From Ignavibacteriota bacterium (GTDB lineage: Bacteria; Bacteroidota; Ignavibacteria; UBA10030; UBA6906): 37,602 bases of DNA. Below the pieces are notes generated by a model. It was not told the origin of the DNA. It did no database searches and saw nothing but the letters and a program-made list of their open reading frames with translations. The stretch is taken from positions 1 through 37,602 of the forward strand of contig JACRFA010000030.1 in assembly GCA_016218065.1 (NCBI GenBank), written 5' to 3'. Each line of letters opens with the position of its first letter. Positions within the stretch are counted from its first letter, which is position 1. This document shows positions 838 to 7,974 of this stretch, piece after piece. Both the position numbers and the translations under genes were made by a program.

Positions 838-911
838 GGTGAAATGAGAAAGGTAAATGAGTAAAGGTGCAACCTCGCAAAATCGGCTTGGCAAAAAAGG
901 AGGGACCAACG

Positions 912-1115
912 ATGGCTCAAGCTCTCAAGTACTATACAAGTGTTAAGGAAGGCGGCAAGATCGAAATAGACAGTGTGCCTCTCGAGGCTGGAACAAAGCT
1001 CGAAGTTATTGTCTTGAAGTCAGAGGATCAATTCGACGATTTGGTCAAGGCATCCGAAACGAGTCTTGAGTTTTGGGACAATGACATAGACGATCAGGTA
1101 TGGAACAATGCCTAA
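912..1115 (+). CDS. Putative antitoxin of a MazF/PemK-type pair
   Basis: This is a 67-residue acidic protein immediately before and overlapping a MazF/PemK-like toxin gene. The ATG at 912 is chosen over the in-frame GTG at 867 because a strong AAGGAGG lies at 896-902. The N-terminal half (KEGGKIEIDSVPLEAGTKL, then EVIVL) has the short beta-strand pattern seen in AbrB-like or DUF2281-like antitoxins. The C-terminal tail (SLEFWDNDIDDQVW) is acidic and aromatic, as expected for the flexible segment that blocks the toxin groove. The last 8 bases overlap the toxin start, so translation is probably coupled. Antitoxins of this type usually repress their own promoter. The exact family cannot be fixed from sequence reading alone. 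Confidence 0.7.
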   Translation: MAQALKYYTSVKEGGKIEIDSVPLEAGTKLEVIVLKSEDQFDDLVKASETSLEFWDNDIDDQVWNNA

Positions 1116-1470
1116 TCAAAGAGAGATTCTGCTGCTGCCGATTCCGTTCACAGATCTGCGATCTTCTAAACGTCGTCCAGTGATCGTTGTATCGCCAGAC
1201 AAGTATAATCAGCTGAAGAAAGACATTCTCGTCGCTGCGATTACATCAAACCTTTCAAATGAAGCAACGGGGATACTCATTCGCACGAGCGACATGGAGG
1301 AAGGGACACTGCTTCACGACAGCATGATAAGGTTTGACAAGCTCTATTGCTTGGATCAAAGGATTATCGTGAAGCGTTTTGGCAAATTGAAGCGTGAAAC
1401 ATATATGGCTATGATCGAAAAGATTTGCTCGTTCATTGAGCTAGAGGGAACACAAGAGCAGAGGAGTTGA
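1108..1470 (+). CDS. MazF/PemK-family toxin, putative mRNA endoribonuclease
   Basis: This 120-residue protein has the hallmark start of PemK/MazF growth inhibitors: [20 protein letters not shown] at residues 8-27, matching the family's PFPFTD...KRRPV(L/I)V block. These toxins cleave mRNA, often at short specific sequences, and are neutralised by the partner antitoxin, here the small acidic protein just upstream with which it overlaps by 8 bases. The length is normal for the family. The gene ends 4 bases before hemB, and the hemB ribosome binding site (GAGGAG, 1461-1466) lies inside its last codons. Whether the toxin is active cannot be told from the sequence; no frameshift or internal stop is present. 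Confidence 0.82.
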
Positions 1471-3962: not shown

Positions 3963-5273
3963 TTATTTTTCATACCATGACACAAGTTCGTATTTGGTGG
4001 CCTTGGGGTAGCCTGGAGGGGCGGCCGTCAGGAATCGCGGGTCATGTCGAATTGAATAATCCATTCCGGTAAGTTTCCCGGAGCCGCCAAATGTCCCGAG
4101 TGAACCGGCAGTCTTCTGTGTCACTCCACCAAACAGACTCACGCGGCCGTGCTTGCCTATGTTCCAGAAATCCTGAGCGGTCAATTCGCCCTCATGACAA
4201 TAGACGGCTGCCTGGATGTTGAATACGCTTTGCTCAGACCGAGAGTTGTCCCTCGTGATAAAGGCATTGCGCTCTGCAACGATACCCATCATATCGGTCG
4301 AAGCCGAGTTTGATCGCGGGTTGTCAAACGCGGCGATTCCATTGCCATCCAGCCAAACATTCCCTTTGTTCGCGTTCGAGCCTTTGAGGGCCACCACCGT
4401 AATCCTCCCGCGGTACGTTCCCTTTATTCTGATGTCGCCGCCACTGACAGCAACGACTCCCGATGGAGCCAATGATGTGATGTTCGCGGTGTCGTTTCTG
4501 ATGGATCCCGTTGTTGGTGGAATCTTCACGGCGACTCTACCGTCGTTGATGAACGTCAGTGCGACATCGTTGCCCGTGTTATTGAGTAGTCCTCCCGATC
4601 CACTGGCAGTTGTCAGAAGATTTGTGAGATTTGCCGCGGAGCGCGGAACCGTGACGCCCCACTGATATCCACCGTTGTAGATCGGTGCTCTCACGCCGCC
4701 CACGGTCATGAGCTGTGGACTATTCGTGGCCGTGACCTTGTCATGGAAATATGGCCTCCCCCCCAGATTAAATCGCCCGTTGGTGTGGGCTAATCCCCAA
4801 ACGGAATCGCCCGTAATTTTCCAATCGTCGCCCCCGCGGAAGGGGCTTCCGACGTAACCATTCTTTTCCTGGTCAGTAAACCAACTGTACTTCGAGAAAC
4901 TGACGATCTTGATCACTGCCTCTACCGTGTCTCTCGCTTCGTTTATCCAGCGGCTTTGACGGAAGCTGTAGAAGTGAATCGGCAGATGGGAAATCGAACG
5001 GATGCGAGTGGTGTCTCCACTCTTGATGACGTAAACGTCAAAACTGCCTCCGGCAAACGCGGTGTTCAAGGTGTTCGTGTTATACGATGTGTCGTTTAAG
5101 CATCGCTGGGTTCCGATGTTCGCTCCCGCGATTGCGAGGTTATGCGCCATTGTCCGGCTGTAGTATTCGGCATACGTGTCCATCGAACTGGCGCTTGTTC
5201 TCCCCATCGTCAGTAATGCGTACCCGACAATTGCACTCACTCCGACGACGTAGATGATCATTGATTTTCCCAT
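3963..5273 (-). CDS. Pilin-like surface protein, large (GKSM N-terminus)
   Basis: This 436-residue protein has a hydrophobic helix at the very N-terminus (MGKSMIIYVVGVSAIVGYAL) followed by a long, Ser/Asn/Thr-rich, predicted beta-rich extracellular part. Such a layout resembles PilX-type minor pilins or pseudopilins. The helix lacks the canonical prepilin G|FxxxE start: there is G at position 2 but no Glu at +5 of the mature form. The segment after the helix (YAEYYSRTMAHNLAIAGANIG) looks like the amphipathic second half of a pilin spine. It is the last gene of a three-gene run with two smaller proteins of the same design. Role inferred: a minor pilin or pseudopilin-like tip protein. The body of the protein was not recognised. 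Confidence 0.55.
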   Translation of the reverse strand: MGKSMIIYVVGVSAIVGYALLTMGRTSASSMDTYAEYYSRTMAHNLAIAGANIGTQRCLNDTSYNTNTLNTAFAGGSFDVYVIKSGDTTRIRSISHLPIHFYSFRQSRWINEARDTVEAVIKIVSFSKYSWFTDQEKNGYVGSPFRGGDDWKITGDSVWGLAHTNGRFNLGGRPYFHDKVTATNSPQLMTVGGVRAPIYNGGYQWGVTVPRSAANLTNLLTTASGSGGLLNNTGNDVALTFINDGRVAVKIPPTTGSIRNDTANITSLAPSGVVAVSGGDIRIKGTYRGRITVVALKGSNANKGNVWLDGNGIAAFDNPRSNSASTDMMGIVAERNAFITRDNSRSEQSVFNIQAAVYCHEGELTAQDFWNIGKHGRVSLFGGVTQKTAGSLGTFGGSGKLTGMDYSIRHDPRFLTAAPPGYPKATKYELVSWYEK

Positions 5274-5288
5274 AGTCCACTTCTGATT

Positions 5289-5873
5289 CTAACCATGACG
5301 TTTTATGTTGCGAGATGACAATCGAGTCTGACGCCAGAATGCACTGGCATAACCTTGTTGGGTCGGATCAATCTGGTCCGCGATCTTGTACGTGCTCGAC
5401 ACAGCGATCGAGACCTCGATGACCGAGATCATCGAGAGCACACTTGTCTGGATGCCGTCCTGATCAAAATACTTCAGCTTGAATGTGGTCACGCCGTATG
5501 CGATGCCAAGCGGAGTGCCGTTATTCACCCGTCGATAGAGGATACGCACCTGCCGGTCCGTGTATTTGGCGAGCGGCGCCCCCACGTACCATTCTACTGA
5601 ATCGACGGTGTTGTTATTGTCGAGGTCGACCCTGATTCTGATTCTCTGCGAATCAGCAATGGCAATCGAATTCTTTGGATCAGGAACATTGAAGCCGGCT
5701 AACCGAAAGTCGGACTCGACGGAAGACATAGCATCGACTAACGATTCTTGAATGCCGAGATTCGTGGTTGCACTGTCGGACGCGCTGGACATGTTGAAGT
5801 TGATTCGCAGAATCAGAAGAATGACGTAGCCTGAGATCAACACCGAGCCTATCATATCAAGTATTACTGCCAT
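5289..5873 (-). CDS. Pilin-like protein (PilW-like)
   Basis: This 194-residue protein begins directly with a hydrophobic helix (MAVILDMIGSVLISGYVILL) ending in the GY pair seen in both neighbours. The rest is soluble: an amphipathic stretch (GIQESLVDAMSSVESDFRLAG) like those in PilW/PulJ-type pseudopilins, where VESDFRLAGF is a familiar feature. A strand-rich domain with RVDLDNNNTVDSVEWYVG follows. The start ATG at 5873 has no clear Shine-Dalgarno sequence. It is separated by 21 and 15 bases from the upstream and downstream pilin-like genes, so the three are probably co-transcribed. Assignment to the PilW/PulJ-like group rests on pattern only. Confidence 0.55.
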   Translation of the reverse strand: MAVILDMIGSVLISGYVILLILRINFNMSSASDSATTNLGIQESLVDAMSSVESDFRLAGFNVPDPKNSIAIADSQRIRIRVDLDNNNTVDSVEWYVGAPLAKYTDRQVRILYRRVNNGTPLGIAYGVTTFKLKYFDQDGIQTSVLSMISVIEVSIAVSSTYKIADQIDPTQQGYASAFWRQTRLSSRNIKRHG

Positions 5874-5894
5874 AGTGGATTGCTGATGGATGTG

Positions 5895-6461
5895 TTAGTT
5901 CCAGAAACTCATAACTGCCGGGATGGCTAGCGTATCGCGCAGCGCCGGATTGATCACTGTGACTGTGATCTTCTTATGCCAGGTGGTGTACAAGGACGCG
6001 CGGTTGAGACTATCGGGCCTGACATACTCGACCTTGCATTTCACGTAGTACTTCGCGCGAATTCCGGGTACAATCGTCTCCCAATGAGAGCCGGGTGTGC
6101 GTGCCGTGTCGAGAGAGTTGGTGCTCTTGAAGACGAGAAACAGATTGTTGAAATCATCGAAGTCGTTGAAGTCGCAGGCGCCGCCGCGATATTTCTCTGT
6201 TGCGCCAGGACCCAGCGCGTTAGGTGAGGTAAGTTGGTTGGTGTTGGTCAACGCGCCGGTTGTTGCATCTTCGATCTTCGCATCGAACATCTTTCCCGTC
6301 GCCTCCTCGATAATGGAGGTGGCGAGTGATACAGCCGTGATACCCGACTCGGCTACATTGATATTGTCGTGGACGTTGGTGATACCTCTGTTGCTGTTGA
6401 GGGCGACGTATCCCATGAGGGAGAGCGCTGCAGCGGCAAACATCGATTGCCCAAGGTTCAA
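5895..6461 (-). CDS. Pilin-like protein (GQSM N-terminus)
   Basis: This is the first gene of the three-gene pilin-like run, 188 residues. The start appears to be TTG at 6459-6461, supported by GGAGA seven bases upstream. No ATG or GTG lies between it and the in-frame upstream stop. The N-terminus (MNLGQSMFAAAALSLMGYVA) matches the third gene of the run in the pattern G[QK]SM followed about ten residues later by GY. A spine-like stretch follows (VAESGITAVSLATSIIEEAT), then a beta-rich domain. No prepilin peptidase gene is nearby. If the Gly before Q/K is a processing site, the leader would be only four residues. Function inferred as a minor pilin or pseudopilin-like component. Confidence 0.55.
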   Translation of the reverse strand: MNLGQSMFAAAALSLMGYVALNSNRGITNVHDNINVAESGITAVSLATSIIEEATGKMFDAKIEDATTGALTNTNQLTSPNALGPGATEKYRGGACDFNDFDDFNNLFLVFKSTNSLDTARTPGSHWETIVPGIRAKYYVKCKVEYVRPDSLNRASLYTTWHKKITVTVINPALRDTLAIPAVMSFWN

Positions 6462-7035: not shown

Positions 7036-7974
7036 TTACTGCAAACGAAAGACGCCCGAGCCGCCAGTGCCGGCTAGCAGCATCGACGCATCAACTGCGA
7101 GCGACAGCACAACTTGATTCGGCAGATCGACTCCGATTGGAAACCAGGCTTTACCTCCATTACTCGATGCGAATGCGCCTTTGTCTGTGCCTGCGTACAG
7201 TACTCCGTTCGCCGAAGTCGCAAGCGCGTACACTGATGCCGAACCGATTCCGTTGTTTGCCTCCGACCAGAGACTTGCCTGCGTGCTCGACCGAAACGCT
7301 CCGTTTCCCCGCGTGCCTGCGAAGAGTGTTCCGTACGCATCGACCGCAAGCGAGATGATTGCCATGTTCGACAAGCCGTGATTCATTCGCGTCCAGCTCG
7401 TGCCGTTGTCGGACGAGCGAAACACACCTGCGCCGTCAGTGCCCGCGTACACGCTGCCGCGAGAGTCGATGGTGAGTGACAAAATTTGATCGGCATTCAA
7501 TCCATCGCCGACGTGAGTCCAGTGTATTCCTTTATTCTCCGATCTGAAGATTCCGCCGCCTAGTGTTCCCGCAAACATCATTCCGGAGGGACTCACTGCG
7601 AGCGCGCTGACAATCGTATTTGATAAGCCATCGCTCACTCTGGTCCAATATTCTCCGCCGTTCGTTGAGGAGAAGATGCCGTCATCCGTCCCTACAAAAA
7701 CGGTTCCTGTCACGTCGACGGCAATTGCATAGATCGCGTGCGTTGAAAGGCCTGCGTTGCGTTCTTGCCACGAACATCGCGTCGATCTGTCTGCGACAAA
7801 CACGCCATGCCCGCCGGTGCAGGCGTAGAGATTGCCTTGTTGGTCGATTGCTTGAGCGTACACAAATCCTGTGAAGGGACCGTTGGTGGACGACCACCGT
7901 TCGGCAGCACGGGCGAACGAACATGCGAAGAAGAATATCGTGAGTAGAGTCAGTGATCGTCGAGTGTTGGTCAT
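7036..7974 (-). CDS. Secreted beta-propeller protein with Asp-box-like repeats
   Basis: This 312-residue protein begins with a clear signal peptide (SLTLLTIFFFACSFARA, cleavage after about residue 23). The rest is about six repeats of roughly 43 residues with the pattern (V/I)xALAV...G..(F/Y)AGT...G(V/I)FRSS(D/N)xGxxWT, for example IFSSTNGGEYWTRVSDGLSN and VFRSSDNGTSWTRMNHGLSN. These are BNR/Asp-box-type blades as in Ycf48-like, sortilin-like or two-component-regulator propellers. There is no T9SS sorting domain at the C-terminus, so it is likely periplasmic or carried out by another route. A terminator follows at 6929-6964. No catalytic residues are visible; a binding or scaffold function is inferred. 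Confidence 0.8.
   Translation of the reverse strand: MTNTRRSLTLLTIFFFACSFARAAERWSSTNGPFTGFVYAQAIDQQGNLYACTGGHGVFVADRSTRCSWQERNAGLSTHAIYAIAVDVTGTVFVGTDDGIFSSTNGGEYWTRVSDGLSNTIVSALAVSPSGMMFAGTLGGGIFRSENKGIHWTHVGDGLNADQILSLTIDSRGSVYAGTDGAGVFRSSDNGTSWTRMNHGLSNMAIISLAVDAYGTLFAGTRGNGAFRSSTQASLWSEANNGIGSASVYALATSANGVLYAGTDKGAFASSNGGKAWFPIGVDLPNQVVLSLAVDASMLLAGTGGSGVFRLQ

Follow-up and report, generated by a model that had tools for sequence, protein, structure and literature searches.

Three adjacent genes, here called gI, gJ and gX, lie at 3963-6461 of the window, which is the whole 37,602-nucleotide stretch of DNA that was analysed. The list of open reading frames shows leftward transcription in the order gI, gJ, gX.

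5895-6461, minus strand: gI, 188 aa, TTG start, begins MNLGQSMFAAAALSLMGY; putative minor pilin; opens the triplet
5289-5873, minus strand: gJ, 194 aa, begins MAVILDMIGSV; putative GspJ/PilA2-like minor pilin
3963-5273, minus strand: gX, 436 aa, begins MGKSMIIYVVG; putative ComZ/GspK-like tip pilin

Searches of the three window proteins against Pfam and NCBIfam gave no usable match. An earlier note, made from the sequence, had described all three as starting directly with a hydrophobic helix, and this is true of gI, gJ and gX. An overlooked leader is excluded for the window triplet because in-frame stops precede the three starts by 6, 8 and 10 codons, with no ATG, GTG or TTG in between. Judged from the list of open reading frames, the window also has no noticeable ATPase, PilC, secretin or prepilin peptidase, as the note had said of all but PilC.

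Alignments of relatives revise what the window suggested about the N termini. The proposed G[QK]SM...GY signature is not kept in relatives, where gX begins MG[RK]xx.. and gI begins M(N/G)xGQxx.., so it is no family feature. The GKSM of gX is confined to the window, and the sharing of G[QK]SM between gI and gX is therefore largely coincidence. The reported lack of Glu5 holds for gX and gI and fails for gJ, which carries an acidic residue at a fixed place in 37 of 39 relatives. In the window gJ (MAVILD) this is Asp6, position 5 after Met removal. The N termini of gJ come in two lengths, M-[SATG]xxxD and MGSQxxxD, which differ by two residues before the fixed acidic residue; position 5 after Met removal, the classical register, is reached in the short class only. 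Cleavage by signal peptidase I had been named as an outcome that would speak against pilins, and the A-x-A motif of such a site is found in none of 40 gI, none of 38 gX and 5 of 39 gJ proteins.

Structure prediction, suggested in the note as a check, gives pilin folds for gJ and gX. The AF2 model of gJ (pLDDT 87) has a helix at residues 2-57 followed by seven strands. Its best VIA-align match is TTHA1219, a type IV-like pilin of T. thermophilus (Z 12.9), and the ten top-ranked alignments all involve TTHA1219 or GspJ/XcpW/EpsJ chains with Z 10.8-12.9, after which Z falls to 6.7. In the XcpGHIJK filament model, residues 1-199 of the full-length chain align with gJ 1-194, starting at the first residue. 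The AF2 model of gX (pLDDT 82) consists of a long helix, a pilin sheet and a predicted beta-solenoid between the penultimate and last pilin strands. The best VIA-align match of gX is ComZ (6qvi; Z 17.0, 316 aligned residues, rmsd 10.4), and the high rmsd is put down to a differing angle between the two domains of the gX model. ComZ has its solenoid inserted between the same two strands, and that solenoid resembles ice-binding proteins (PMC6561018), which the solenoid of the predicted gX model likewise matches in VIA-align. In both models the N-terminal helix is continuous to residue 57-60. Foldseek alone returned nothing for the gJ and gX models at E<=0.001. The fold evidence, drawn from predicted models with one aligner, VIA-align, appears good for both proteins.

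The PDB sequence profile of gJ found only TTHA1219 (E 1.9) and those of gI and gX nothing meaningful, and Pfam gave no consistent match on the gI and gJ alignments. DUF4900 (PF16241) was found in 17 of 23 gX relatives. Comparison of the triplet proteins with single E. coli Gsp proteins by hhalign gave low probability; at that low overall probability, the 'ILD' of gJ aligned with the 'LLE' of GspJ in the Glu5 register. A gI homologue is the first gene in every triplet, and by synteny gI may have a GspI-like role.

The earlier note also proposed looking for the same three-gene order beside pilus genes in relatives, and it is found there, with gI, gJ and gX inside a pilus locus. The order is the same in all loci inspected and is kept across the taxonomic order. 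The locus runs pilin(s), pilC, pilB, triplet, putative pilT, pilM- and pilN-like genes, secretin, and a triplet in a locus of this kind was seen in more than two families of the order and in one other member of the class. The conserved three-gene order together with the position in a pilus locus is far above chance. The pilin identity of the triplet is well supported, and the idea that these are divergent minor pilins or pseudopilins whose leader is very short holds up in view of the pilin folds, the GspI-J-K-like order and the pilus locus in relatives.

The machine itself has the extension ATPase, platform protein and secretin of the type IV filament superfamily, as judged from domain matches. 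Pfam matches in the machine locus of a genome of the same genus (G002) comprise three T2SSE (PF00437), T2SSF (PF00482) and secretin (PF00263), and the major pilin there gives a weak match to a type IV pilin family. The PilM- and PilN-like genes are named from weak Pfam scores (PilN 0.084; T2SSM_b 0.05) plus their position in the locus. Walker A and B motifs are intact in PilB and in the putative PilT, the third T2SSE ATPase, and Cys4 is present in PilB only. The third ATPase has an 86% identical counterpart in the window's own genome; its size, position and missing Cys4 are the reasons for calling it PilT rather than PilB. In the window's own genome the machine is split over two contigs (C298 and C173), with no triplet between pilB and pilT.

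The same genome holds three copies of the triplet in the same gene order, namely the one in the window and those on contigs C167 and C316. In the gJ tree the window copy groups with machine-locus gJ proteins of G015, G020, G008 and G018 (support 100/98), and these four genomes belong to the same family as the window genome; the group also holds one dispersed gJ of G004. Because of this grouping with machine-locus gJ, the window triplet is probably a relocated set of tip pilins of the pilus machine. The triplets on C167 and C316 are most likely extra sets. Of 100 relatives, 88 have a match to the gJ profile, and more than one copy per genome is common. Genome G032 has six gJ copies and T2SSF matches for one PilC only, and several triplets per single machine suggests that tips are exchangeable. 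Several complete triplets lie clustered on one contig in locus L167 (G032:C30), as also in L168 and L171.

A further gene lies near the triplet in the window.

7036-7974, minus strand: secreted beta-propeller protein with Reg_prop/sortilin-like repeats

Homologues of the propeller protein adjoin triplets in L011 (5128-6105) and L166 (5494-6429), and it is a possible companion of the triplet, as a tip ligand or a PilY1-like partner. As a constant PilY1-like partner it is unsupported in general, being found beside three triplets only. Extra pilins are also scattered outside machine loci: the window's own genome has another gene for a leaderless pilin, well away from its machine locus (G000:C270:16330-16734), and scattered extra pilins occur in several relatives.

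The absence of a leader extends to the major pilin, which starts MGQQQLLL. Among 144 distinct sequences, G2 is present in 142 and Q4 and Q5 in 141, and 136 have no in-frame start upstream. The same is true of most minor pilins (gI 38/40, gJ 34/39, gX 35/38). Positions 4-9 hold no acidic residue in the 143 major pilins and 38 gX proteins compared. In the PDB the major pilin profile finds PilA5 at E 0.006 and geopilin at E 0.01; in Pfam it finds the family ComP_DUS at E 9e-5, under that family's curated cut-off. A-x-A motifs lie inside the helix of 102 of the 143 major pilins; they were rejected as signal peptidase I sites, since ordinary pilins are also Ala-rich there. MGQQQ pilins in a locus of this kind also occur in nine single-contig genomes, which represent several families of the phylum. 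From these sequences, the class III signal peptide, a leader of 6-26 residues ending in Gly, appears to be missing, and the leader of the triplet pilins would be the initiator Met alone, as throughout the system, major pilin and all.

The enzyme that cuts such leaders is also missing in its known form. A search with PF01478 found nothing above the cut-off in the window's own genome, a 97% complete draft, and in the relatives it scored above the cut-off in 6 of 100; it did so in 12 of 14 control genomes. The canonical N_methyl motif occurs in 10 of the 100 relatives, including five of the six with PF01478 (Fisher p about 2e-5), and a strict pattern recovered an ordinary prepilin (e.g., EEG/YTLLET) in four of five stretches around a second, ordinary PilC or peptidase. 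This overlap and these ordinary prepilins show that the method detects the classical system where it is present. Leaderless pilin and PilC occur together in 85 relatives, 79 of them without PF01478. Most genomes surveyed are drafts; PF01478 is absent from 63 of 69 good-quality genomes with leaderless pilin and PilC, and, among the 12 single-contig genomes that have the pilin, from all except G161. Five genomes (G014, G030, G064, G091 and G096) have N_methyl-type prepilins though no PF01478 match, which may reflect contamination, gaps in the assembly or a peptidase that has diverged.

The triplet is thus read, with considerable confidence, as encoding the complex that initiates, and sits at the tip of, a machine resembling a type IV pilus and made of leaderless pilins. 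The machine, encoded elsewhere in the genome, would comprise two PilB-type ATPases, PilT, PilC, PilM/N-like proteins, the secretin and the MGQQQLLL pilins. The N-terminal helix would insert the pilins in the inner membrane with the N terminus cytoplasmic. The initiator Met would be the sole residue to remove, and methionine aminopeptidase could give a free mature N terminus, the counterpart of the PilD product in other pili. At the tip, gX would form the cap, with its solenoid domain as a putative ligand-binding head, and gJ and gI would sit below it; both the place of gX and its ligand binding are proposed by analogy with ComZ and GspK. The fibre would then be extended by PilB and retracted by PilT.

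The least certain of these steps is the supply of the mature N terminus by methionine aminopeptidase. Gly, Ser or Ala at position 2 favours removal of Met by this enzyme, and Asn does not. The residue at position 2 permits removal in all 143 pilins, 35 of 39 gJ, 34 of 38 gX and 25 of 40 gI, and in 14 of the 40 gI proteins it is Asn. A rather unlikely alternative is that a peptidase unrelated to PF01478 cuts after Gly2, in which case 'MG' would be a leader of two residues with the classical Gly-1 at its end. The near invariance of G2 (142 of 144 major pilins) goes far beyond what methionine aminopeptidase alone requires, and Gly-1 is critical to PilD cleavage (PMC4471445). However, the loci inspected, by eye and through labelled homologues, showed no candidate peptidase, known leaders span 6-26 residues (PMC4471445), and the short forms of gJ begin M-[SAT], with no Gly.

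What the filament does can also be read in another way. The order of the triplet and the fold of gJ would also suit a T2SS-like pseudopilus for protein secretion that does not extend and retract as a pilus, and a secretion system derived from T4aP has been suggested for Cytophaga by Denise et al. (PMC6668835). The locus, however, includes a probable PilT-type ATPase, and the Cytophaga system is not this one, as it has its own Peptidase_A24 (PMC5553014); a pseudopilus is judged distinctly unlikely. It is highly improbable that the triplet encodes stand-alone surface proteins, membrane-anchored or released by signal peptidase, with no link to a pilus. The machine genes are indeed not adjacent to the window triplet in its own genome, but the pilin folds, the orthologues in machine loci, the helix running unbroken to residue 57-60 and the absence of an A-x-A site from gI and gX all speak against that view. 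Against the proposed pilus itself counts the major pilin without Glu5, a residue on which homopolymer assembly depends in the pili studied (PMC4471445). On balance, we lean toward a whole branch of type IV pili, spread through the Bacteroidota/Ignavibacteria part of the FCB group as well as neighbouring phyla, that would make its pilins at mature length with the initiator Met as sole leader, do without prepilin processing, use methionine aminopeptidase in place of PilD and assemble without Glu5 in the major pilin.

Several known systems share parts of this arrangement. ComZ, at the tip of the Thermus thermophilus competence pilus, has its solenoid before the last pilin strand, as does the gX model, and likewise has neither a predicted PilD site nor Glu5 (PMC6561018). 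Its Thermus partners PilA1-3 are ordinary pilins by PilFind, whereas in the present system every partner, the major pilin too, is leaderless. ComEC was rejected as a sign of DNA uptake, as it is found in 90 of 100 relatives with or without a pilus. In the T2SS, GspI, GspJ and GspK are likewise encoded by three adjacent genes, the triplet follows the K-12 order gspI-J-K, and the predicted gJ fold is that of GspJ/XcpW/EpsJ. The T2SS minor pseudopilins differ in having a class III signal peptide and a helical GspK insertion, where the present system has no such peptide, a predicted gX solenoid and a putative PilT. PilB, a putative PilT, PilC, a secretin, PilM/N-like genes and pilin folds are held in common with the canonical type IVa pilus. 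The present system differs from it in being leaderless, in having a major pilin without Glu5 and in the lack of a recognisable prepilin peptidase in the genome.

Loss of the peptidase has parallels as well. The mitochondrial T2SS of some protists is also a type IV filament relative without GspO; its GspG, however, keeps E5 and carries a long, cleaved N-terminal extension, of which there is none here, and the precursor is thought to be processed despite the missing GspO (PMC10128026). The MSH pilus locus likewise has no prepilin peptidase gene of its own, but MSH genomes have the peptidase of another system, thought to be borrowed, whereas here the genome usually has none (PMC6668835).

Reviews regard the class III signal peptide and its peptidase as universal (PMC4471445). 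Type IV filaments are conventionally defined by the leader, the prepilin peptidase and Glu5, and annotation programs search for these features. A leaderless pilus in genomes without the leader-cutting enzyme would contradict the textbook definition of these machines. If such a system is widespread and conserved, many machines of this kind would be invisible to current searches. It would also offer a natural test of the purpose of leader cleavage and Glu5. The 2013 description of Melioribacter roseus noted pilT, Q, B and C but no pilA or pilD (PMC3534657), which a leaderless system would account for. No earlier description of a leaderless system was found in the openly available papers that were searched for leaderless pilins or a missing prepilin peptidase.

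The MGQQQ pilin is found in 92 of 100 relatives and in 102 of 296 genomes sampled throughout the phylum. Named records with it are mainly from Ignavibacteria and other Bacteroidota, with further ones from Kryptoniota, Calditrichota, KSB1, Zixibacteria, LCP-89 and Latescibacterota. It also occurs in bins labelled Patescibacteria (L085), Kerfeldbacteria (L108) and Actinomycetota (L087), perhaps through misbinning or transfer. The window holds one more possible feature, judged by eye.

867-1470, plus strand: small overlapping pair that resembles antitoxin and MazF/PemK-like toxin genes, between heme biosynthesis genes
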